Assembly (NCBI GenBank): GCA_900475325.1
Contig: LS483371.1
Location: 4,526,001-4,590,000, forward strand
Reading direction: 5' to 3'
Length of the DNA: 64,000 bases
Source: Paucimonas lemoignei
GTDB lineage: Bacteria > Pseudomonadota > Gammaproteobacteria > Pseudomonadales > Pseudomonadaceae
Of the stretch, positions 769-28,167 are shown one piece after another. The notes below the pieces were generated by a model that was not told the origin of the DNA, did no database searches, and was given only the letters and a program-made list of their open reading frames with translations. Within the stretch, counting starts at the first letter, position 1; each line of letters starts with the position of its first letter. A program made the position numbers and the translations under genes.

Positions 769-1563
769 ATGCGATTCTGGATTGCATTCGTGATGATGAC
801 CCTGGCTGGCGTCGCCCAGGCGGCCATCAAGACCGAACAGATCAACTATCAAAGCGCCGACGGCACCAAGCTGGTGGGTTATTACGCCTACGACGACGCC
901 ATCAAGGGCCAGCGCCCTGGCATCATCGTCGTCCACGAATGGTGGGGGCTGAACGAGTACGCCAAACGCCGCGCACGTGATCTGGCCGCCCTGGGCTACA
1001 GCGCCATGGCGATCGACATGTATGGCGAAGGCAAAAACACCGAACACCCGAAAGACGCCATGGCCTTCATGCAAGCCGCGTTGAAGGACAGCGACGCCGC
1101 CAACAAGCGCTTCGATGCGGGCCTTGAACAGCTCAAGAAACAGCCACAGACCAACCCCGCGAAGATCGCCGCCATCGGTTACTGCTTCGGCGGCAAGATC
1201 GTGCTCGACGCAGCCCGTCGCGGCGAAGCACTGGCGGGCGTGGTCAGCTTCCACGGTGCACTGGTCACCAACACCCCGGCCACACCGGGCGGTGTGAAAG
1301 TGCCGATGCTGGTGGAGCATGGCGCGAAAGACAGCATGGTCACGCCAGAAAACGTCACTGCCTTCAAGAATGAAATGGACAAGGCTGGGGCCGACTACAA
1401 ATTCGTCAGCCTCGCCGACGCCAAACACGGCTTCACCAACCCCGACGCCGACCGCCTCAGCCACGGCGAACACGGCGGCCCGGATATCGGCTACAACAAA
1501 GCCGCTGATGAAAGCTCGTGGAAAGATATGCAGGCGTTTCTGAAAAAGGTGTTTGGCGCTTAG
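769..1563 (+). CDS. exported dienelactone hydrolase family protein
   Basis: 264 residues. The start at 769 follows AAAGGAG and gives a signal peptide (MRFWIAFVMMTLAGVAQA). The alpha/beta-hydrolase body has the dienelactone-hydrolase signature: HEWWGLN near residue 55, nucleophile Cys in GYCFGGK near residue 138, an Asp in HGAKD near residue 189 and the catalytic His in DAKHGF near residue 222. The family hydrolyses lactones and esters; the true substrate here is unknown, and export suggests a periplasmic ester or lactone rather than the chlorocatechol pathway. It is transcribed alone, with a REP pair downstream. Confidence 0.85.
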   Translation: MRFWIAFVMMTLAGVAQAAIKTEQINYQSADGTKLVGYYAYDDAIKGQRPGIIVVHEWWGLNEYAKRRARDLAALGYSAMAIDMYGEGKNTEHPKDAMAFMQAALKDSDAANKRFDAGLEQLKKQPQTNPAKIAAIGYCFGGKIVLDAARRGEALAGVVSFHGALVTNTPATPGGVKVPMLVEHGAKDSMVTPENVTAFKNEMDKAGADYKFVSLADAKHGFTNPDADRLSHGEHGGPDIGYNKAADESSWKDMQAFLKKVFGA

Positions 1564-1576
1564 CAGCACCGGTTCC

Positions 1577-1652
1577 CTGTAGGAGCTGCCGGAGGCTGCG
1601 AAGGCAATGGGCCTGACACAACGCCTTCGCAGCCTTCGGCAGCTCCTACAGG
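1577..1652. repeat. REP inverted pair (GGAGCTGCCGAAGG type)
   Basis: Two facing copies of the GTAGGAGCTGCC(G)GAGGCTGC unit form a long imperfect hairpin between the hydrolase gene and pcpS. Confidence 0.85.
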
Positions 1653-1715
1653 TCGGTGCCTGGCAGCAAGCACTGCAACTTCACAATCCCCCCTTCCCCC
1701 GGCAAAATGCCGCCC

Positions 1716-2441
1716 ATGACTCAAACCATCGCGCTACCAGCCTGCTGCCCCGCTCTCACCCATCACTGGCCCCTGCCTCACGCGCTGGCGAATGTGGCGT
1801 TGGTCAGCGGGAACTTCGACCCGGCCAAACTGCTGGAAGGCGACTTCCCGCGTTGCGCCATTGAGCCACCGGCCAGCATTCAGCGCTCCGTCGCCAAACG
1901 CCAGACCGAGTTTCTCGCAGGTCGACTGTGCGCACGTGCCGCCCTGATACAACTGGAGGGTCGCGACTGGGTGCCCGACATGGGCGAAGACCGCGCACCG
2001 GTCTGGCCGCAAGACATCAGCGGTTCGATCACCCACAGCACCGGCTGGGCCGCGGCCATTGTCGGCAATAAACAGCACTGGCGCGGCCTGGGGCTGGACA
2101 CCGAGAACCTGCTCAGCCAGGAGCGCGCCACTCGCCTGGCCGGGGAGATCCTTACCCCCACAGAAATGCAGCAAATGGCCGCGGGGCCTGCCGAGCAGAT
2201 CGCCCTTCGCGTGACCCTGACCTTCTCTATAAAAGAAGCGCTGTTCAAAGCGCTGTACCCCATCGTGCACAAACGCTTCTACTTCGAAGACGCGCAACTG
2301 CTGGAGTGGACAGACGATGGCCACGCCCGCCTGCGCCTGCTGACGAACCTGTCCAGCGAATGGCACAGCGGCAAAGAGCTGGACGGGCAATTCAGCGTGC
2401 AGGGTCAACATGTGTTGAGTCTGGTGGCCATTCCTGCCTAA
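1716..2441 (+). CDS. pcpS: 4'-phosphopantetheinyl transferase (PcpS/EntD type)
   Basis: 241 residues. It moves 4'-phosphopantetheine from CoA to a serine of carrier proteins (fatty-acid ACP, peptide and polyketide carrier domains). Visible family motifs are AGRLCARAAL (CoA binding), GSITHS (His near residue 107), the Mg2+-binding GLGLDTE and the FSIKEALFKAL helix with the catalytic Glu/Lys. The sequence resembles P. aeruginosa PcpS over its full length. Two in-frame ATGs, at 1707 and 1716, are possible; neither has a strong ribosome site, and 1716 was chosen. It is needed to activate pyoverdine-type NRPSs, which fits the siderophore reductase gene downstream. Confidence 0.9.
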   Translation: MTQTIALPACCPALTHHWPLPHALANVALVSGNFDPAKLLEGDFPRCAIEPPASIQRSVAKRQTEFLAGRLCARAALIQLEGRDWVPDMGEDRAPVWPQDISGSITHSTGWAAAIVGNKQHWRGLGLDTENLLSQERATRLAGEILTPTEMQQMAAGPAEQIALRVTLTFSIKEALFKALYPIVHKRFYFEDAQLLEWTDDGHARLRLLTNLSSEWHSGKELDGQFSVQGQHVLSLVAIPA

Positions 2442-2474
2442 GTCAGCCACCGATGTCCCGGCGCAAATGCACAC

Positions 2475-2572
2475 CCCTGTGGGAGCGAATTCATTCGCGA
2501 ATGCGGGTTTACACGCGACGAATCTCTATCTTATGTACCGGCCCTTTCGCGAATAAATTCGCTCCCACAGGG
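2475..2572. repeat. REP pair (GGGAGCGA type)
   Basis: Facing copies of CCTGTGGGAGCGAATTCATT and its complement lie between the convergent ends of pcpS and fhuF. Confidence 0.85.
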
Positions 2573-2576
2573 TCAG

Positions 2577-3248
2577 TCAGCCCACCGCCTCCAACGGGCA
2601 ATGCTCACACCGCCCCACCCACTCCACCTGATAACTCAAGCAACAGGTACGGCGTTTTCGGCAGGCAGGTTCGCCCACATAGGTGATGGCATTTAACAGC
2701 GGGTTGCGCCGCCCATCGGCCAGCGTCCTGTTGCGCAGCAACCCAAAGCCCGCGTCCAGCGAAACATCCGTCAAGGCGCTCAGCCGGGCAAGGCAGCTTT
2801 CCAGATAATCCCCGGCATTGCCCCACAACACAGCCCCCGGCAGGTTGCCGTAGGCGCTGAGATTTTCAATAACCGGCCGCAGGTTGTGGTCCAGCAGCCC
2901 TTCAAGCCCGCCCTCTTCGCAAGCCCCGAATTTCACCCCGGCAGGCAAACCCCGCACGTCCAGGGCCAGGCTCACGTCATCGAGTTTCAAAGACCAATGC
3001 CGATCAAACATCAGACTCGCCACCACCACCGGCGGGATCACCTGCATGAAGTAATACTTGGACCACTGCGAGACCAGCACCGCCTGCTTAGCTGGCATCA
3101 ATTGCGGGCCATAGAGGTTCAGCAGCAAGGCGTCCAGCGACTCAGGCTGCAACACCTCCAATAGAGGCCGCACGGGTTGCGGATCTTCGGCGACCAGCAG
3201 GGTTTGACCGAATTGCGCGAATGGGCCGCTGAATAAAGGCTGAGTCAT
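2577..3248 (-). CDS. fhuF: siderophore-iron reductase FhuF family
   Basis: 223 residues from the ATG at 3248 (MTQPLFSGPF). The C-terminus has the FhuF-type [2Fe-2S] ligand pattern, an adjacent Cys pair in RTCC followed by CEHC about ten residues later. FhuF proteins are cytoplasmic ferric-siderophore reductases that release iron as Fe2+. The reading frame extends further upstream, but that stretch runs through a REP pair and looks non-coding. Head-to-tail orientation towards pcpS suggests a loose siderophore neighbourhood. I did not find a convincing Fur box. Confidence 0.82.
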   Translation of the reverse strand: MTQPLFSGPFAQFGQTLLVAEDPQPVRPLLEVLQPESLDALLLNLYGPQLMPAKQAVLVSQWSKYYFMQVIPPVVVASLMFDRHWSLKLDDVSLALDVRGLPAGVKFGACEEGGLEGLLDHNLRPVIENLSAYGNLPGAVLWGNAGDYLESCLARLSALTDVSLDAGFGLLRNRTLADGRRNPLLNAITYVGEPACRKRRTCCLSYQVEWVGRCEHCPLEAVG

Positions 3249-16696: not shown

Positions 16697-17809
16697 GTGG
16701 CGATCCCAGCAGTTGAGAAAAAAGCGGTTGAACAGGCGCTGCGCCGGTTCGATGAATTCAGGGACCAACCTGAATGGGCTGGATGGGAGTCGAACAACGC
16801 GCACCAATTCGCGATACGCGTGGGTGGCGAGCTGTACCCTGCGAAAAAAATAATTTCACTTGCAACAGACATTGCTGCACGTGACTTCACCAATAAAAAA
16901 TCAACAAATGGCTATTTTCGAGCCTGTAAATACGAAGTCGTTGATCTCCGAGAGACGCCAAAACTCGACTTTGTAAGAGGCGAAATATATGACCGTAAGA
17001 CTGAAATCCATGGTCCTTTTGGTGGAAGCTCGCAAAACGGGATAGCGCCGTCCAGAAAAGCACCGGCTATATTTCTATTTTCGGGAGCGTCAGGTGAGCA
17101 GTATGGATACACAGATAAGGTAGATGAAGTGAACGGCGTCTACTCGTACGCAGGCGAGGGACAGGTCGGTCACATGACGCTGACCAGCGGAAACTTAGCA
17201 GTTCAGCAGCATGCGGCTAAAGGTCGGGCATTACACCTCTTTAAAACACTAGGCAAGGGTAAGGGGCAGCTATATGTAGGAGAGTACGTGTGTGCGGATA
17301 TCTCTTGGCAAGATGGATCTGATCGAAACGGAGACATTCGAAAGGTCGTCATCTTCCACCTAGTGCCTGTAGCTGACCTAGCAACATATGAACTGGGACC
17401 AGATGACAACGTAGCGGCTGATATCGCTGAGCTAAAGATCGATGCCCTAAGAAAACGAGCCTACCAAGCAGCATTCGCTCCCGTCAGCAAAGGGACATTG
17501 ACATCAACGCGCACGATTTACGCTCGAAGCCAAGCCGTCAAGGATTATGTGCTAAGCAGAGCTGGAGGAGTCTGTGAAAGCTGCGATCAACCGGCGCCCT
17601 TCACTACCAAGGCAGGCTCACCTTATCTAGAACCCCACCATATCAATCGTTTATCTGATGGCGGGCTGGATCACCCCAAGTACATCGGGGCAATCTGCCC
17701 TACGTGTCACAAAGAGATCCACTATGGTTCTCAAGGCGACGCGAAAAATAATCTGCTGCGTGAATCCGTAAATCTAAAAGAGCTAGCAGATTTAGCTAAA
17801 AGCTTTTAG
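16697..17809 (+). CDS. ScoMcrA-like SRA-HNH endonuclease (predicted type IV restriction)
   Basis: 370 residues from a GTG preceded by AAGGACGA. Three parts can be read. The N-terminal head (about 1-75, WAGWESNNAHQFAIRVGGEL and YPAKKIISLA) resembles ScoMcrA-type N-domains. An SRA-like domain (about 100-235) contains FLFSGASGEQYGY, YSYAGEGQVGHM and GRALHLFK. A C-terminal HNH nuclease (about 285-350) has CESC, EPHHINRLSDGG and CPTCHKEIH with the zinc and catalytic His residues. Such proteins cut modified DNA (5-methylcytosine, phosphorothioate). Its GC content is below the flanks, and it opens a run of defence-like genes. Confidence 0.85.
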   Translation: MAIPAVEKKAVEQALRRFDEFRDQPEWAGWESNNAHQFAIRVGGELYPAKKIISLATDIAARDFTNKKSTNGYFRACKYEVVDLRETPKLDFVRGEIYDRKTEIHGPFGGSSQNGIAPSRKAPAIFLFSGASGEQYGYTDKVDEVNGVYSYAGEGQVGHMTLTSGNLAVQQHAAKGRALHLFKTLGKGKGQLYVGEYVCADISWQDGSDRNGDIRKVVIFHLVPVADLATYELGPDDNVAADIAELKIDALRKRAYQAAFAPVSKGTLTSTRTIYARSQAVKDYVLSRAGGVCESCDQPAPFTTKAGSPYLEPHHINRLSDGGLDHPKYIGAICPTCHKEIHYGSQGDAKNNLLRESVNLKELADLAKSF

Positions 17810-17966
17810 ATCGTGCACGGCGTAATTGCTCCCGATTTGACCATTTTCATTGCCCCTTACCAGTAAATCGCATCCTGGTCGACCAATTGCGGGCTAAACG
17901 ACTTATCGAAAACAGGCGATGTGAAAATATGTCCAGTTCTACTGCCTAGTACGATCGCTATGTTTT

Positions 17967-17996
17967 GTCGCCGGCAGCAACCGGCCAAAAGCGGTC
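17967..17996. repeat. island inter-module element, copy A
   Basis: GCCGGCAGCAACCGGCCAAA followed by AGCGGTC: a divergent copy of the GGCCGATTTCTGCC family seen at 20128, 21784, 25172 and 27116. It lies downstream of the HNH gene. Confidence 0.6.
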
Positions 17997-18072
17997 CTTC
18001 CACAGGGCTTCTCCAATGCCGGCAACGTACTTCATTCAGTCGCTGACTATGGGCATTACCTCAATGGGCTAG

Positions 18073-18741
18073 CTAGATATCCCGCCGCTTATGTTCAGGG
18101 GTTAACGCACGTATCGCCTCTAGCTCCTTCTCTTCTGTAATGCAGTGACGAACTGCTATGTTCAGCAGGGTAAAAAGCGCTAGCGCGACCTCTGGGCTGT
18201 CATTGAGATTGACAGTTCCTGGATGTACCGACTCGTTTCCGAAGATACGGATGGTATCGAACGCCTTCAACAGTCGGCTGGGCAATCCCAACTCTACAAG
18301 CTCACCAATTTGATTGTGTATTTTGCCCGGTTTGCCTAAAAGCTCCTCACAAAGCTTTTGCACACACAGTCGGAGCAGAGCAGCCGCAGCTCGAGGAGAG
18401 TGGCTGAAAACTAATCTAGCTTCTTCATAATCCGCTCTGATCCCCTCAGGCATATCCTCTTCAGCCTTGGGTGCGATGCACTCCGAAGGGAAAATCATCT
18501 TTATCCTGCTCCCTAGGTGTCCTTCCATCGGCATTCCAGGCGTGAGGCCATGCCTGCCGCCACCCTCATCAGTGATCCAAATACTGGGATCTTTGCAAGC
18601 CGAACAGAACGAAAAGGATACAGAGGCGTACTCATTGCTATTCAAGAGCAAGTCATTCCATTTCATACCGGCGAATGCACCACAGCGCGGGCAATTGAAG
18701 CTTTCCTTTCTGTAGCTTGGCGTACCATCGACATTGCTCAT
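18073..18741 (-). CDS. DUF4145-like protein with N-terminal zinc ribbon
   Basis: 222 residues from ATG 18741 (a TTG nine bases upstream is also possible). The N-terminus has a zinc-ribbon pattern, CPRC near residue 17 and CSAC near residue 46. The C-terminal half (about 110-210) has ARLVFSHSPRAAAALLRLCV, LCEELL, IRIFGNESVHPG and a helical tail, the usual DUF4145 layout with the conserved GN/H. DUF4145 proteins are common in restriction and other defence islands but their activity is unknown. It is convergent with the HNH gene. Confidence 0.72.
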   Translation of the reverse strand: MSNVDGTPSYRKESFNCPRCGAFAGMKWNDLLLNSNEYASVSFSFCSACKDPSIWITDEGGGRHGLTPGMPMEGHLGSRIKMIFPSECIAPKAEEDMPEGIRADYEEARLVFSHSPRAAAALLRLCVQKLCEELLGKPGKIHNQIGELVELGLPSRLLKAFDTIRIFGNESVHPGTVNLNDSPEVALALFTLLNIAVRHCITEEKELEAIRALTPEHKRRDI

Positions 18742-19387
18742 TGATACCAATCCATCATCCAGTTGTTTGCGCTAATCTAATCCGAACCTGGTGCGCGAAG
18801 CCATCGACGCCATTCTTCACTGGGGAACCCGTGCTTCAGTCGGCCGGGCGAAAGCCAGCATCGGTGTCTAAATGCTGCTGAATCGCCACAAATTTCCTTG
18901 AAATATGCGCAAGTCCGCTTATGGCCGTCGCACGCCGCCGTTTTTTGGCCTTCCTTTGAATGATTTGTAGTGGACTCGGCGTTCCTCTACAGTGAGGGCG
19001 CGTAAAGGCGATCAGGTTGATCAACGTGATAGCACCGCACCCGAATTGACCTGCTTGCCGAAATTTCATTGATCCAGTCTGATTCTGCCTAATTGCATGG
19101 ACTTGACCAGTACGCTGGGTCTCCTTGACTGGCAGGAGTCGACCCAATGCAACGGGTCAGTTCGGGCTGCAACCAACCAAGAACAGATGTTGGCACGTTG
19201 CCAAATCCCGTGGATACCATATTTATGCTTCCCAAAATATTTTTGCTTCTGGCGCGCGACTCGATCTAGTTATAAACTCATCTGGCATCCAGATTGCTCT
19301 GCCCATGAGCCGAACGTCGTGTGATAGGCCCTGGAAGTCAAACCAGTAAAGCTTACGATTTATCTATATCGGTCGAGGTGATTAAAT
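18742..19387. other. intergenic stretch without a confident gene
   Basis: About 645 bases. Open frames exist on both strands (for example 18836-19147 on the minus strand), but none has a ribosome site, recognised motif or sensible codon pattern. The sequence shifts between GC-rich and AT-rich patches as if assembled from decayed fragments. The last 15 bases hold the GAGGTGATT ribosome site of the next gene. Confidence 0.5.
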
Positions 19388-19981
19388 TTGGACTACTATG
19401 ATGAAGATGAAGAGGTAGGTATCGGCAGGGGCAACTGGATATATATTGGTTGCGATGTCGATAAGTTTAACTGGTCAAAAGTTGGCAAGACCACCGAAGG
19501 TTTACACACTCGCCACAGATCTCCTCAGAATCCAGACTACTGCATCTACACTGCCTTTAAAATCATTCGAGGCGATGTTCATGATATTGAGAAAAAACTA
19601 CTAAAACATCTTGAATTTCAGTGCGATCTTCAAAGACTCCCTCACATTAGCACTAGTAACGACAGTGAGTGCTTCAGACTAAATCCAGAAGAGATGACTT
19701 GGCTTGTCGAGCAGTTTATTGAGAGCAAATTCGGCTCGTGTGTCACGTATGAAAATGGTCTTCATGGAGACATGAGTCGGTATCGTTGTGATGATAGAAT
19801 TTATCGCCACTTTCAAAATTTTAACGCTCCTCAATCAAAGCCACTTGCATTGGAGCCTCTATCCTTAGGAAGGAACAGTTACTTTACAGGAAACCAAGAA
19901 ACCTATGAGGTGGATCTTGGAGATGGCTATTATATCGATGTAACCAGCGGTATGACTAGACACCGAAACGATGATCTTTAA
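19388..19981 (+). CDS. GIY-YIG (T5orf172-like) protein
   Basis: 197 residues. It starts with TTG, supported by a strong GAGGTGAT ribosome site seven bases upstream and by no in-frame ATG before the domain. Residues about 14-85 have the GIY-YIG-like order: WIYIGCD, SKVGKTTEGLHTRHR, PDYCIYTAFKI and IEKKLLKHL, matching the T5orf172/MUG113 variant of the fold. The C-terminal half has no recognised domain. GIY-YIG nucleases of this group are usually phage-, plasmid- or island-borne. It is AT-rich, transcribed alone and flanked by non-coding DNA on both sides. Confidence 0.7.
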   Translation: MDYYDEDEEVGIGRGNWIYIGCDVDKFNWSKVGKTTEGLHTRHRSPQNPDYCIYTAFKIIRGDVHDIEKKLLKHLEFQCDLQRLPHISTSNDSECFRLNPEEMTWLVEQFIESKFGSCVTYENGLHGDMSRYRCDDRIYRHFQNFNAPQSKPLALEPLSLGRNSYFTGNQETYEVDLGDGYYIDVTSGMTRHRNDDL

Positions 19982-20457
19982 AGCCTACCGTGAGGTGGTG
20001 GCAGAGCTATTGATAGCACAGTCACCACTGCACTGGTATTGATCTTTAACTTAGAGGCCCCGCGAACACGGAGCCGACCAAATCTGTTCAATTACTTAAA
20101 GTTGCGGTCTTACGCGAAAGGCTGGTAGTGGCCGATTTCTGCCTGAAAGACGGACATCTAGTCTGTCGCGCCCTAGGACCAGACCCGTTCGATCATACTA
20201 TTTGAAGCCTTTGAATTTGTGACAAGCGGACCTCCAAGAAAAGGATGCTTTTCTGGCGTGGGTAGGCCAGCTGGTTCCAGATGCTCTGAACTGCCAGAAA
20301 GTGACGGCGGGAGGGTAGTGGTCAGGGTTTTAGGTCCTAAAAAAGCTTCGGAGGCTCTCACAGCCCCTCACTAGCTATTCAAAAAAATGCATTTCTGCTT
20401 TAATTTGAATTTACCAATAACACGTACTCCCTTTTAAGGCTTTGCTGGAGATAATAA
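19982..20457. other. intergenic stretch with decayed sequence
   Basis: About 475 bases. It holds element copy B (20128-20152) and, at 20215-20372, a short plus-strand open frame lacking any ribosome site that could be a gene remnant. The last 50 bases are AT-rich and carry GGAG before the TTG start of the PIN gene. Confidence 0.45.
20128..20152. repeat. island inter-module element, copy B
   Basis: GTGGCCGATTTCTGCCTGAA followed by AGACGG; one arm of the inverted element only. Confidence 0.6.
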
Positions 20458-21609
20458 TTGAGAGTATCAATAGATACAAATATCTTGCACCAAGAAGGAT
20501 ATATGTCGCAGTCTATGCGGCTTCTCCAAAGGGTTATTAATGCGAGTTCTTTGGAATTGATCTTGAGTGAAATTGTTCTCCGAGAATACGAGACTAAAAC
20601 AACTTCTGATCTTTCTGCAAAGGCCCAAAGTGTAAAAGATAACCTTCGAGAAATTTCTAAAATTTTTGCTAGGTCTGGTGATGATATTGAAAGCGTAACT
20701 GATTTCAATAATGGGTTTACAAATTATCTTCCGGAGCTTCACAGCCGACTAAATGAAATGACGAAAACGTGGCTAAAAGACTTCAAGGTCACTATTTTAA
20801 ATCCGCACCCAGGAATTTATGAGCAGGTGTGGAACGATTATTTTTCGGGTAAGGGTGCATTTAAAAAGCTTAAGAATCGTGACGATATACCTGACGCAGT
20901 AATAGCGAGGTCCCTTGAAGAGCTGATTAGTGACGGCATGCCACTGATATTTATATGCAAAGATGGCCAGCTCAAAGAATATATGAGCAATTTTCCACAA
21001 GTCCGCGTATTTGCCGAGCTGGCTGAACTGATTCGGAGTAAGGAGTTTGTGGATATTCTCGGTGATTTGGATGCCCGCGACATGGTTATCGAGGAGTTTA
21101 AACAAGTTATAGGATCTGAAACGTTTCTTAACAACGTAATGAAGTATTTTTCGGCGAAAGAATCTGATTTCCATTATTCTTACTGGGAAGATGGAATGAT
21201 CGAAAATCAAAGCGAGTTACCTTTGCCCGCTTGGCGTGGAGTTAGTGCAGGCGGACCTATAGTTTCTAGTATCCAAGGTGTTGAGTTTGGACAGGTTTCT
21301 TGTATCAATCCGCGTCACTACGTTGTTACCGTGACCTTTAATGCTTCTTTGCCAATAAGCTTCGTGGGCGATTATGCAGATTGGATTCATGCTCCAGATG
21401 ACGTAAAGAGATCGATTGAAATTACGTCCGCTAATGGTGATGGCGCGTGCGAGTTCATGACTGTAAAGCGAGCTAAGATACTGGGTGAGATTGTAGTGCA
21501 TTTACTCGAAAGTGAAGATCCGAAAAGCTTGTTAATCCATTCGCAATATATTGGTACTGATGATTCCCCTTTAGATGTGGAGTTTGTTCCTAATAAAGTA
21601 ATTCTTTGA
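20458..21609 (+). CDS. PIN-domain protein (predicted ribonuclease)
   Basis: 383 residues. Start TTG at 20458, seven bases after GGAG. The frame begins directly with MRVSIDTNILHQEG, in which Asp6 and Asn8 are the first PIN motif. Further acidic residues fit the PIN site: ILSEIVLREYE (Glu), RDDIPDAVIARSLEE (Asp) and ICKDGQLKEYM (Asp). The domain spans about 1-185. The C-terminal 190 residues are unassigned and end in a beta-rich part. Long PIN proteins of this DUF4935-like type occur in defence islands; the target RNA is unknown. No antitoxin gene lies next to it. Confidence 0.75.
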   Translation: MRVSIDTNILHQEGYMSQSMRLLQRVINASSLELILSEIVLREYETKTTSDLSAKAQSVKDNLREISKIFARSGDDIESVTDFNNGFTNYLPELHSRLNEMTKTWLKDFKVTILNPHPGIYEQVWNDYFSGKGAFKKLKNRDDIPDAVIARSLEELISDGMPLIFICKDGQLKEYMSNFPQVRVFAELAELIRSKEFVDILGDLDARDMVIEEFKQVIGSETFLNNVMKYFSAKESDFHYSYWEDGMIENQSELPLPAWRGVSAGGPIVSSIQGVEFGQVSCINPRHYVVTVTFNASLPISFVGDYADWIHAPDDVKRSIEITSANGDGACEFMTVKRAKILGEIVVHLLESEDPKSLLIHSQYIGTDDSPLDVEFVPNKVIL

Positions 21610-21830: not shown

Positions 21831-22124
21831 TCATACAATATCTACGATCCTAGCGATTCGCTGAGTCAATTCGAGAACTTCTACCGATAGAAGGCGATAC
21901 TCATCCGTAACTTGTTCCTGACTCTTATTGGCTAGGAAAAAAAGTTTATCGGCAGACTCGCAGATTGCACGGGGCAAATCGGCGGCGGGATCAATTCCAT
22001 TGACACGAACCCAACGGTCGATTGCGCCACTAGAGAGACCATAAAGCTCCTCCTTCCAGATCCCGCGATTAACAAGATTAAGAATTACGCGCTGAGCGTC
22101 AATTCGATTGTTGAATTCAATCAT
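21831..22124 (-). CDS. 97-aa helical protein, last gene of the NTase operon
   Basis: 97 residues, predicted almost entirely helical (heptad-like leucine and isoleucine spacing in the last 35 residues). Its ATG overlaps the stop of the nucleotidyltransferase gene as ATGA, so the two are translationally coupled and probably act together. I recognise no family. Position, size and coupling suit an antitoxin or regulatory partner of the upstream enzyme, but that is inference. An inverted element follows immediately. Confidence 0.65.
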   Translation of the reverse strand: MIEFNNRIDAQRVILNLVNRGIWKEELYGLSSGAIDRWVRVNGIDPAADLPRAICESADKLFFLANKSQEQVTDEYRLLSVEVLELTQRIARIVDIV

Positions 22125-22744
22125 GGCGAATGCTGGCTCCGTAACGCTTCCATCCAGCGTGGAACGATGGCGACTGCTTTGATAGCGGCGACGACTTCTT
22201 CATGCGTGATGTTTTCTCCATAACCTCGTGTCGATAGTAATCGCGCGCGTGTCAGAATGGAGAATGCTTGGGGATCGATATCGAGGCTTGGCAGCACCAT
22301 CAGAGGAGACTTCCTCGAGAAGATGGGTTGTCCGAGCGAAAGCGAATGACAGGTTGCGAAATTTCGGATGGCCAAGAATATGCAGGATAGGTGAAAGGTC
22401 GCACTGTTCGTAGACTGCCTCAATTCTTGGTAAGAGCGGTCGAAAAGTCTTTGGAATTTGGTGCAGTCTCGGGCATCCGCGATGTAAGGCGCTGGCTTCC
22501 CTAGGTCGTCCAGAAAGTCCGTGCCATCTGGGGAGAAAAGTAACCTCGACTCTAGATGCAGGTGCCAGGCGAACGGATTGCCCTCTTTCCACAAAGCCTG
22601 AATTCGCTCATATCGATACACGGAGTATTTTTCGTGATCAATCTGCTGTGCTGGGCCGCCGACGCAGGCCAGTAGATCGACATCTGATCCTAGGTCAATC
22701 TCCCCCCGGCAGATGGAGCCGAAGGCGTAAATGTGCATATTCAT
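22121..22744 (-). CDS. nucleotidyltransferase with HEPN-like C-terminus
   Basis: 207 residues. The N-terminus has the minimal nucleotidyltransferase signature GSICRGEIDLGSDVDLL (G-S-x10-S-D-x-D, metal-binding Asp pair). The C-terminal helical half contains RNFATCH, fitting the RNx4H motif of HEPN ribonucleases, inside a predicted helix. So the protein may be an MNT-HEPN fusion, or a KNT-like transferase whose C-domain is only HEPN-shaped. Start and stop both overlap neighbouring genes as ATGA (22741-22744 and 22121-22124), making one coupled operon with a pentapeptide-repeat membrane protein upstream. MNT and HEPN normally form a toxin-antitoxin pair. Confidence 0.75.
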   Translation of the reverse strand: MNMHIYAFGSICRGEIDLGSDVDLLACVGGPAQQIDHEKYSVYRYERIQALWKEGNPFAWHLHLESRLLFSPDGTDFLDDLGKPAPYIADARDCTKFQRLFDRSYQELRQSTNSATFHLSCIFLAIRNFATCHSLSLGQPIFSRKSPLMVLPSLDIDPQAFSILTRARLLSTRGYGENITHEEVVAAIKAVAIVPRWMEALRSQHSP

Positions 22745-23691
22745 CGCCGACCAAACCGTTTTACAAGAATAGCCGTGAGAAAGGCGAATCCAACCAGACG
22801 CGTAGCAGCAATAATCGATGAGAACCAAATTGGGTAGGGGTGCGGGGTGGCTATGCCGAAGAACACTCCAGGAGAGGCCGCGAGGCTAGTAAGATAGGCA
22901 GTCAGATCCCAGGGATTGCCGAAGTGATAAGTATCATAGAAAGCTATTAGGATATGAACTACTACGATCGCCCGCAGCAGCTTAAGCGTATTCTCGCCAT
23001 TGCCCCAGATCGCATCTAGCACTCTGAACTCAAGCCATTTGATGAACTGTGGCACCTTCTTCCAACCCGGATACTTATCCCGGTAATATGTCTCTCTTGA
23101 TGACCAAGATTTTTTGAGATAGCTTGATGTAGCCTCCAACTCGTGTGAAATCGCTCTATTTACAGCTTTCGCATCGCCAATTTGCTGGAAATTCATTCGA
23201 AGCGATCTGGCAAACCGCATTTTCAGATTTTCCTCACGCGGTGCCTCCCGCTCAAGGATGTCGTCGTCGATTTGGCAACGCTCGAAGACCGCATACTCAA
23301 ACTTGCATCCGGAAAATGCGGACTGATGGAAATTACAGCCAACGAACCGACAGCCGGTGAAGTCGCAGGAATCGAAATTACAGTTATTGAAGTAGCAAGC
23401 GTCGAAAACGCTATGCTGGAAGGAGACCTTCCGAAGCGTCTGTTTCTTGGCGTTTAGCCTGACATACACCTTGAAGGCATAGTCTTTAGGCTCATTCTCG
23501 ACATTCCTGCTAACGTAAAGGTCAGTGATGACCTCCCGGTTACCTGGCAGCAGCGCCTCACGAGGCTTTCTCTGCACGACACTGGCGACCCCGTCTGTCG
23601 TTAGAGCCTCGACGCCTGCGTTCACTGAGGGCGGGTTCTCGTCCATCATGTTCAGCTTATGCTGCCTTATCGCTCCATTGTTGGAATGCAT
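22741..23691 (-). CDS. pentapeptide-repeat membrane protein
   Basis: 316 residues, first gene of a coupled operon. Residues about 88-145 are pentapeptide repeats of A(D/N)LxF type with many Cys and Phe (SVFDACYFNNCNFDSCDF, then FVGCNFHQSAF), predicted to form a short right-handed beta-helix. Then comes a charged linker and at least two membrane spans near the C-terminus (LLRAIVVVHILIAFY and IIAATRLVGFAFLTAILV). This layout, soluble beta-helix plus C-terminal membrane domain, resembles pentapeptide-ion-channel-like effectors, but a pore loop is not evident. The ribosome site is weak (AGGT). Confidence 0.72.
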   Translation of the reverse strand: MHSNNGAIRQHKLNMMDENPPSVNAGVEALTTDGVASVVQRKPREALLPGNREVITDLYVSRNVENEPKDYAFKVYVRLNAKKQTLRKVSFQHSVFDACYFNNCNFDSCDFTGCRFVGCNFHQSAFSGCKFEYAVFERCQIDDDILEREAPREENLKMRFARSLRMNFQQIGDAKAVNRAISHELEATSSYLKKSWSSRETYYRDKYPGWKKVPQFIKWLEFRVLDAIWGNGENTLKLLRAIVVVHILIAFYDTYHFGNPWDLTAYLTSLAASPGVFFGIATPHPYPIWFSSIIAATRLVGFAFLTAILVKRFGRR

Positions 23692-23741: not shown

Positions 23742-24015
23742 TCAACATTCGCGGGCAGCAAAATTCCGGATGACGCGACTTTCAGGAGCAACAGCCCTGT
23801 TGCATGCTCGTGACCTTCGATAGGTTGCTTTGGGTCGAATGTGGTCCGCCGTGTAATCCAAGCTGTTGCGAATCAAGTGCACGACGCAGGTTTGCGGTGT
23901 CGTAGCAGGAAACACCGCCCCCAAGGCCTCCGGTACTCCTTTGGCAAATGTATTTATCCCCGAGTAGCTTTCTCCACAACCGCCATAGTCCGTACTTTTC
24001 GACCAAACCCCGCAA
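23742..24015 (-). pseudogene. IS256-family transposase remnant
   Basis: Reading the minus strand across 24000-23800 gives INTFAKGVPEAL, then FPATTPQTCVVHLIRNSLDY, the well-known core of IS256/mutator transposases (FPxTxVQTCIVHLxRxSL). Sequence on either side does not continue the protein, so only about 45-60 codons survive and the element is dead. It lies between the pentapeptide operon and the Ntn-hydrolase gene and marks past mobile-element activity in the island. Confidence 0.75.
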
Positions 24016-27606: not shown

Positions 27607-28167
27607 ATGCTTGACCTCGACTTACCAAGGCAGCACGCCGACAAAGCCCTCCACCCCACCACCTTCCACCGCCACAACCGCCAACTCCGCACCCTCCTCC
27701 TCGAGTCCCAAGTCTGGTTCTGTGCTCGAGACTTCAGCCGTCTGATGGGCTGGCCACTGAACGAGCGGACGACGCGCAAGCTGGATGTGGATCAGCGGCG
27801 GATGGTTTTGCTTGCGACGCATTACGGGGTTGAGGAAGAGTTGATGGTCAGCGAGTCGGGGGTTTATGAGTTGTTGGTGCATCACTTTCATGCGGAGAAT
27901 CGAGGGTTGCGGCGTTGGATTACCAATGAGGTGGTGCCTTGCTTGCGGGATGATCGGTTGCCGTTGAACGACTGCGCGCCTAGCCTCAGTCAGTTGTGTT
28001 GGCCGGGGCTGTCGGTGTGTCTGTTGCATTGGCAGAGCGAGCCGTGGATTCGGTTGCGGGATATGCCGAGGATGTTGCCGCTGGGGCAGTTGCCGGGGGA
28101 TTCGGGGCGGGTTGGAGGTCGGTTGCCGTGGTGGCGGGCTATTTGGCGGGGGGTTGGGTTTGGTTAA
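27607..28167 (+). CDS. BRO-N domain protein (phage antirepressor-like)
   Basis: 186 residues. Residues about 22-120 match the BRO-N fold: QLRTLLLESQVWFCARDFSR, LMGWPLNERTTRKLD, then ESGVYELLVHHFHAENRGLR and WITNEVVPCL, a DNA-binding domain of phage antirepressors. The C-terminal 65 residues are low-complexity and not a known domain. A recognisable Shine-Dalgarno sequence is lacking; the region before the ATG (GCAGAGATC) is the presumed target of the RNA candidate upstream. It marks the right edge of the island and suggests phage ancestry. Confidence 0.8.
   Translation: MLDLDLPRQHADKALHPTTFHRHNRQLRTLLLESQVWFCARDFSRLMGWPLNERTTRKLDVDQRRMVLLATHYGVEEELMVSESGVYELLVHHFHAENRGLRRWITNEVVPCLRDDRLPLNDCAPSLSQLCWPGLSVCLLHWQSEPWIRLRDMPRMLPLGQLPGDSGRVGGRLPWWRAIWRGVGFG

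Follow-up and report, generated by a model that had tools for sequence, protein, structure and literature searches.

Canonical Hailong is a two-gene system comprising the channel HalA and the oligo-dA synthase HalB, and Tan et al. reportedly found that the C-terminal tyrosine of HalB starts DNA synthesis. How a HalB-type enzyme might start DNA without a tyrosine of its own is the question posed by a locus of Paucimonas lemoignei, in which genes for a putative channel, a HalB-like enzyme and a short third protein are coupled within the stretch of 64,000 nucleotides analysed here (the window). An answer would indicate whether bacterial immunity makes use of a primer in the form of a separate protein, and whether DNA that serves as an inhibitory signal can be attached to protein. 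ORF calls and the window sequence, which belongs to a one-contig genome of 5.92 Mb whose nearest named relatives are Pseudomonas, place three ORFs on the minus strand with the following features.

22741..23691, minus strand: gene 1, HalA-like protein of 316 aa (ORF; Pentapeptide_3, HalA profile, hydropathy)
22121..22744, minus strand: gene 2, HalB-like nucleotidyltransferase of 207 aa with an NTase and a HEPN-like helical domain (ORF from the ATG at 22744)
21831..22124, minus strand: gene 3, third protein of 97 aa with four predicted helices (ORF)
22741..22744, minus strand: ATGA overlap of the gene 1 stop and the gene 2 start (sequence read)
22121..22124, minus strand: ATGA overlap of the gene 2 stop and the gene 3 start (sequence read)
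22676..22720, minus strand: GS-x10-SDVD nucleotidyltransferase signature, gene 2 residues 9-23 (G9, S10, D21 and D23 invariant in 27/27 aligned relatives)
22346..22366, minus strand: RNFATCH, gene 2 residues 127-133 (R127 invariant, histidine not)
21921..21923, minus strand: third-protein Ser68, located in the helix 3-helix 4 loop (alignments, predicted model)
21897..21899, minus strand: Tyr76 of the third protein (alignments)

Both junctions (22744-22741 and 22124-22121) read ATGA, as had been stated in an earlier reading made from the sequence alone (the sequence-only reading). For gene 2, the ATG at 22744 was taken as the start; the TTG start at 22828 given by the ORF tool, which yields 235 aa, falls inside gene 1. 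An enzyme 98% identical to that of the window is encoded in Pseudomonas syringae GR12-2 (L002), and similar short ORFs, which we take to be transposase-like, are located just upstream of the operon in both genomes (window 23742-24015; L002 4712-5003).

Judged by its signature and predicted model, gene 2 encodes a HalB-type nucleotidyltransferase, which retains the GS-DxD motif and the HalB fold but not the HalB tail. HalB was the best match both in NCBIfam (3.7e-10, 39.8 bits against a cut-off of 190) and among PDB sequences (1e-4, or 1.6e-8 with a profile), all 13 Foldseek matches of the predicted model at E <= 0.001 were HalB, and profile-profile comparison of the gene 2 relatives with HalB-type proteins gave a probability of 98.7 over 136 columns; the NCBIfam MntA model was matched weakly (E 0.035). 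The fold alignment, at approximately 20% identity, covers HalB residues 1-186 only of a deposited chain of 229 residues (217 resolved), so that the final 40 or so residues of HalB are left unmatched in this alignment; the gene 2 product ends in RSQHSP, without a terminal tyrosine. The MNT signature that had been claimed for the middle protein is borne out by the translation, its key residues being invariant as listed above. The sequence-only reading had also placed MNT and HEPN, usually a separate antitoxin and toxin, in this one chain and had taken RNFATCH for the HEPN RNase motif. Both folds are indeed predicted within the 207 aa, fold comparison of the model agrees that the C-terminal half is HEPN-like, and the letters are present, with R127, N128, A130 and C132 invariant across the 27 aligned relatives; however, position 133 holds histidine in only 11 of them (tyrosine in 12, phenylalanine in 4), which makes an active RNase unlikely. 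In fold comparison, the combination of an NTase with a HEPN-like domain is also found in HalB and in aminoglycoside nucleotidyltransferases.

Gene 1, described earlier as a pentapeptide-repeat membrane protein, agrees with that description and is, on its sequence features, a pentapeptide-repeat protein with a putative two-helix, channel-like end. Pfam and hydropathy place the pentapeptide repeats at approximately residues 86-144 (Pentapeptide_3, 2.9e-11), followed by a linker, two hydrophobic segments (234-252 and 292-310) and a basic end, and the short stretch between the two segments may be re-entrant. The NCBIfam HalA model was matched at 4.6e-5 (22.8 bits, cut-off 250), with three Qnr models slightly higher, and in a PDB sequence search the structure of HalA with oligodeoxyadenylate (9nyi) came third at 3.7e-5, a McbG-like pentapeptide protein standing ahead of it. 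Since HalA fell to 0.0015, with other pentapeptide proteins ahead, when the PDB was searched with the gene 1 profile, the sequence link to HalA resides mostly in the pentapeptide part; profile-profile comparison of gene 1 relatives with canonical HalA spanned 241 columns, the membrane part among them (probability 98.4, E 5.7e-15, 17% identity). The distant gene 1 relative on a Bacillota plasmid of Priestia (L052, 4081-4968) has an Ion_trans_2 domain (1.4e-7) and a potassium-channel-like TVGYG stretch.

The three-gene unit is real and conserved, and it is Hailong-like. In every one of the 32 loci counted, the window among them, gene 2 is followed by gene 3, and gene 1 is located ahead of gene 2, at least partly, in 31, the exception being L074, which is cut at a contig end and in which gene 1 is not visible. 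Gene 1 is broken, cut or only partly covered in L020, L047, L049, L050 and L068; in L049 and L050, it is interrupted by, or truncated at, insertion elements. Because the order is kept despite diverged sequence, the arrangement reflects more than chance. A search for the same order in other genomes had been suggested as a check by the sequence-only reading and supports it; L018, an enzyme-like, distant HalB-like match, lacks genes 1 and 3 and was dropped from the counts. A genome scan gave seven loci, all with the three genes, in two Pseudomonas, an Acetobacteraceae bacterium, a cyanobacterium, Polaribacter, Dyadobacter and Mixta. Further three-gene loci were found in Pseudomonas (L009, L012) and in other genomes of its class or order (L017, L019, L020, L047), in all seven matches of one plasmid search (L048-L054) and in eleven viral contigs (L064-L074), which were returned identically by scans with the enzyme and, separately, with the third protein. 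Outside its training rows, the third-protein profile A5 gave 7.8e-18 (L054), 7e-27 (L020) and 2.4e-27 to 3.1e-35 (the eleven viral contigs). The loci cover three phyla, or four if the third gene of L052 is accepted, whose protein is the least certain of all (part of A5 by construction, missed by profile A7); in L047, the third gene is not independent evidence, as it was located with the third-protein profile.

At E <= 1e-3, the enzyme has 1437 relatives and the third protein 1923. The three-gene system is sporadic: the third protein was matched in 2 of 398 phylum genomes and the enzyme in 5 of 249 genus genomes, the window's own genome being included in both. Scans with the NCBIfam HalB model at E <= 0.001 gave matches in 8 of the 149 genomes from the genus and in 66 of the 369 from the class, many of them spanning only 20-50 residues and none exceeding the cut-off. 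Three of the 8 genus-scan loci were examined (L009, L010, L012), as were 10 of the 29 new class-scan loci (L017-L022, L024, L027, L029, L037), of which L017, L019 and L020 were counted, and 9 of the 33 matches of a second plasmid search (H8, H9, H11-H14, H16, H31, H32). Six class-scan loci (L021, L022, L024, L027, L029, L037) hold, by eye, other nucleotidyltransferases or none visible. A Rhodococcus nucleotidyltransferase with a phosphoesterase (L059) and a haloarchaeal nucleotidyltransferase (L062) belong to neither group and were dropped from the counts; in L059 (2348-3807), the HalB-like nucleotidyltransferase gene is followed by that of the metallophosphoesterase. The counts also omit L010, which repeats L002, L087-L097, which are the contigs L064-L074, as well as L083-L086 and L013-L016, while L001, L011, L046 and L082 are the window itself; near copies among the rows are L008 with L067-L069, L065 with L070, and L079 with L081. 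The PLSDB gene table is incomplete, and the third gene of two Rhizobium loci (L053 5644-6039, L054 5635-6000) and the enzyme gene of Janthinobacterium (L048 5001-5624) are missing from it yet present in the DNA.

Fourteen HalB-type loci served for comparison, namely a canonical pair on a Sulfitobacter plasmid (L055), in which HalA scores 266.6 bits, over the NCBIfam equivalog cut-off of 250, and HalB 185.1, just under that of 190; the canonical loci of viral contigs (L075-L081; HalA not visible in L080); and six beside WYL or DUF1883 genes (L056-L058, L060, L061, L063). HalA is visible in 7 of the 14. A relative of the third protein is absent from all 14 in the profile search (best E 0.074, elsewhere in the locus), and no similar coupled ORF appears in their ORF lists. 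A tyrosine is present within the last four enzyme residues in 14 of 14 HalB-type loci, whereas only 7 of the 32 three-gene enzymes have one (L008 and its near copies L067-L069, L009, L017, L071), as do 6 of 116 database relatives of at least 200 aa among 120 listed; the Fisher value of 4.8e-7 for the three-gene against the HalB-type loci is no probability for independent events, since several rows are near copies. In a tree built from 21 rows of three-gene loci and 13 of HalB-type loci, to which L018 and L059 were added without being assigned to a group, the three-gene rows stand on one side of a branch with a support of 99/98; the places of L018, L052 and L059 are unsure, given the long branches on which L052 groups with L018.

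In L057, L058, L060 and L063 (approximately 1500-3170), a WYL-domain gene is directly followed by a HalB-type gene whose product has a terminal tyrosine; no HalA was found within the 5 kb retrieved around them, and the HalB of L057 (220.8 bits) is over the NCBIfam cut-off. On small plasmids of Yersinia ruckeri (L056, 2189-3151) and Klebsiella pneumoniae (L061, 1855-2799), a HalB-type gene is located behind DUF1883, and in L061 a WYL gene is near it as well. HalB-type synthases may thus serve other partners.

The sequence-only reading had seen in gene 3 a small, helical, coupled partner of 97 aa, and this character holds: helices are predicted at 7-18, 32-41, 49-66 and 74-96 (pLDDT 88.9), and the gene accompanies that of the enzyme throughout. 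The third protein has no Pfam or PADLOC match and no significant match in NCBIfam or the PDB, an E of 0.014 against an NCBIfam beta-lactamase model (cut-off 840 bits) being judged noise; the fold search gave no significant match, with the phi29 terminal protein absent among the matches listed. Ser68 is kept in 120/120 near relatives, in 86/86 rows of alignment A7 and in 18/18 of the diverse set A5, where its placement in the distant rows depends on the alignment. Tyr76 is likewise present in 120/120 near relatives and is absent from its column in the 8 distant A5 rows, L051 having a tyrosine one column away. The most conserved stretch, LFFLANKSQEQ, lies partly in a loop, and the block that holds Ser68 (61-70) has a mean pLDDT of 75, the lowest except for the first block; Ser68 could be structural. 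Fusions of the enzyme with the third protein were found in none of the best 120 of 155 matches.

We propose that the three genes form a Hailong-like guard system against phage, in which gene 2 would act as a template-independent polymerase that makes short single-stranded DNA, probably oligo-dA. From HalA, we infer that this DNA would bind the membrane channel encoded by gene 1 and keep it shut, and that its destruction by a phage nuclease would release the channel, whereby the cell would be stopped. The single-stranded DNA made by Hailong keeps its effector suppressed until phage exonuclease activity releases it (PMC12657230), and oligodeoxyadenylate acts as an inhibitory signal (PMC12265719); the mechanism is also treated in PMC13275509. 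That genes 1 and 2 share a Hailong-like mechanism is likely; that there is a Hailong-like core in which the enzyme gene has an obligate partner in gene 3 is somewhat more probable than its contrary. Gene 3 would work together with gene 2, and since the latter is without the C-terminal tail that bears the starting tyrosine of canonical HalB, the third protein would most likely supply the hydroxyl that starts the DNA, in the manner of the phi29 terminal protein, the putative site of attachment being Ser68 (or Tyr76). This primer role, drawn by analogy, is offered tentatively and is on balance doubtful. In DRT9, tyrosines of the C-terminal tail also start poly-dA (PMC12483538). In its full form, which we hold with equal reserve, the proposal would make the third protein a dedicated, terminal-protein-like primer acting in trans in place of the self-priming tail of the synthase, and the channel-gating DNA would be carried on it, the protein-DNA conjugate being the guard signal.

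The same Hailong-like core could instead contain a third protein that is no primer: it might be a structural subunit, serve as a sensor, or be a DNA-binding partner that keeps the oligonucleotide attached to the channel or couples the enzyme to the channel, and we give this reading not quite an even chance. The strict co-occurrence with the enzyme fits it, the stretch LFFLANKSQEQ would also suit a protein-contact site, and GLSSGAIDRW (helix 32-41) is reminiscent of a helix-turn-helix fragment, repressor C2 appearing in the third-protein profile search at a non-significant E of 1.1; however, it leaves the missing tail and terminal tyrosine in the clade with the third gene unexplained. MntA adenylylates HepT as a reversible switch, and the enzyme might similarly adenylylate the third protein or the channel, with no DNA polymer being made. 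The minimal nucleotidyltransferase domain, a small partner in which Ser68 and Tyr76 are conserved, and the weak match to the MntA model are consistent with such a switch, but it is unlikely in view of HalB as the clearly better match in sequence and fold and of the resemblance of gene 1 to HalA, a DNA-bound channel. In CBASS, a nucleotidyltransferase is combined with a membrane effector and the signal activates the effector; a second-messenger system of this logic, in which infection would lead to a cyclic or linear ribonucleotide that opens the channel, is less probable still, as HalA and HalB, whose logic is inhibitory, are the closest relatives by sequence as well as by fold. A one-chain HEPN-MNT toxin-antitoxin with the C-terminal half as RNase, suggested by the HEPN-like fold and the letters RNFATCH, is highly improbable given the inconstant histidine, the same architecture in HalB and aminoglycoside nucleotidyltransferases, and the typical lack of RNase residues in fused HEPN domains reported in PMC3710099.

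For the Hailong-like guard system preferred here, the neighbourhood supports a defence role, although it does not prove it. Next to the three-gene operon, a cluster at window 16697-21609 contains HNH, DUF4145, T5orf172 and PIN_12 genes, and its HNH protein matches type IV restriction models at 5.9e-19; a Bro-N domain gene lies at 27607-28167. Among the relatives, neighbours picked by hand, with no chance-frequency baseline, include an HNH restriction-type protein (L008), candidates for PDC-S41 (L006) and PDC-S02 (L007), an ABC-three-component gene (L054) and an AAA ATPase (L005). A phrog_68 portal gene, which we take to be P2-type, is located within approximately 1 kb of the three-gene loci L066 and L070 and of the canonical locus L078; phage replication or NinB genes adjoin L069, L071 and L072, and an endolysin is encoded near L064.

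Among known systems, the phi29 terminal protein provides a lead for the third protein, not a homology. Its priming domain consists of four bundled helices, and Ser232 is located in a disordered loop (PMC4974454); the likeness of the predicted third protein consists of a four-helix bundle, a key serine in a flexible loop and a polymerase partner, which is a weak criterion; no sequence or fold relation between the two was found. Aminoglycoside nucleotidyltransferases (ANT/KNT) share with gene 2 the NTase and HEPN-like helical architecture. MntA-HepT likewise brings nucleotidyltransferase and HEPN-like folds together, but as two separate adjacent genes, whereas the window enzyme has both in a single chain of 207 aa, belongs to a family without a conserved RNase histidine (H133) and has a channel-like and a helical protein as partners.

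The sequence-only reading knew of no described defence system with this gene order. The three-gene form was indeed not found in the literature searched, although loci of this kind may already be listed by Tan et al. (2025; doi 10.1038/s41586-025-09058-z), in the paper or in its supplement; the order of genes 1 and 2, on the other hand, is shared with Hailong, in which a pentapeptide and membrane effector also lies just upstream of a nucleotidyltransferase with the HalB fold and DxD. Unlike Hailong, the window unit has a third coupled gene, of the kind found in none of the HalB-type loci; its enzyme is without a counterpart of the HalB tail, as three-gene enzymes in general are without a conserved terminal tyrosine, and stands on the other side of the tree; and both of its proteins score far under the NCBIfam cut-offs. 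These scores, the absent terminal tyrosine and a make-up other than two genes set the unit apart from canonical Hailong. The three-gene loci point to a broad clade that stands beside canonical Hailong, scores under the present HalA/HalB cut-offs and has no description in the literature searched. Hailong is the closest known system, and the window unit is best read, short of proof, as a variant of it rather than as canonical Hailong.
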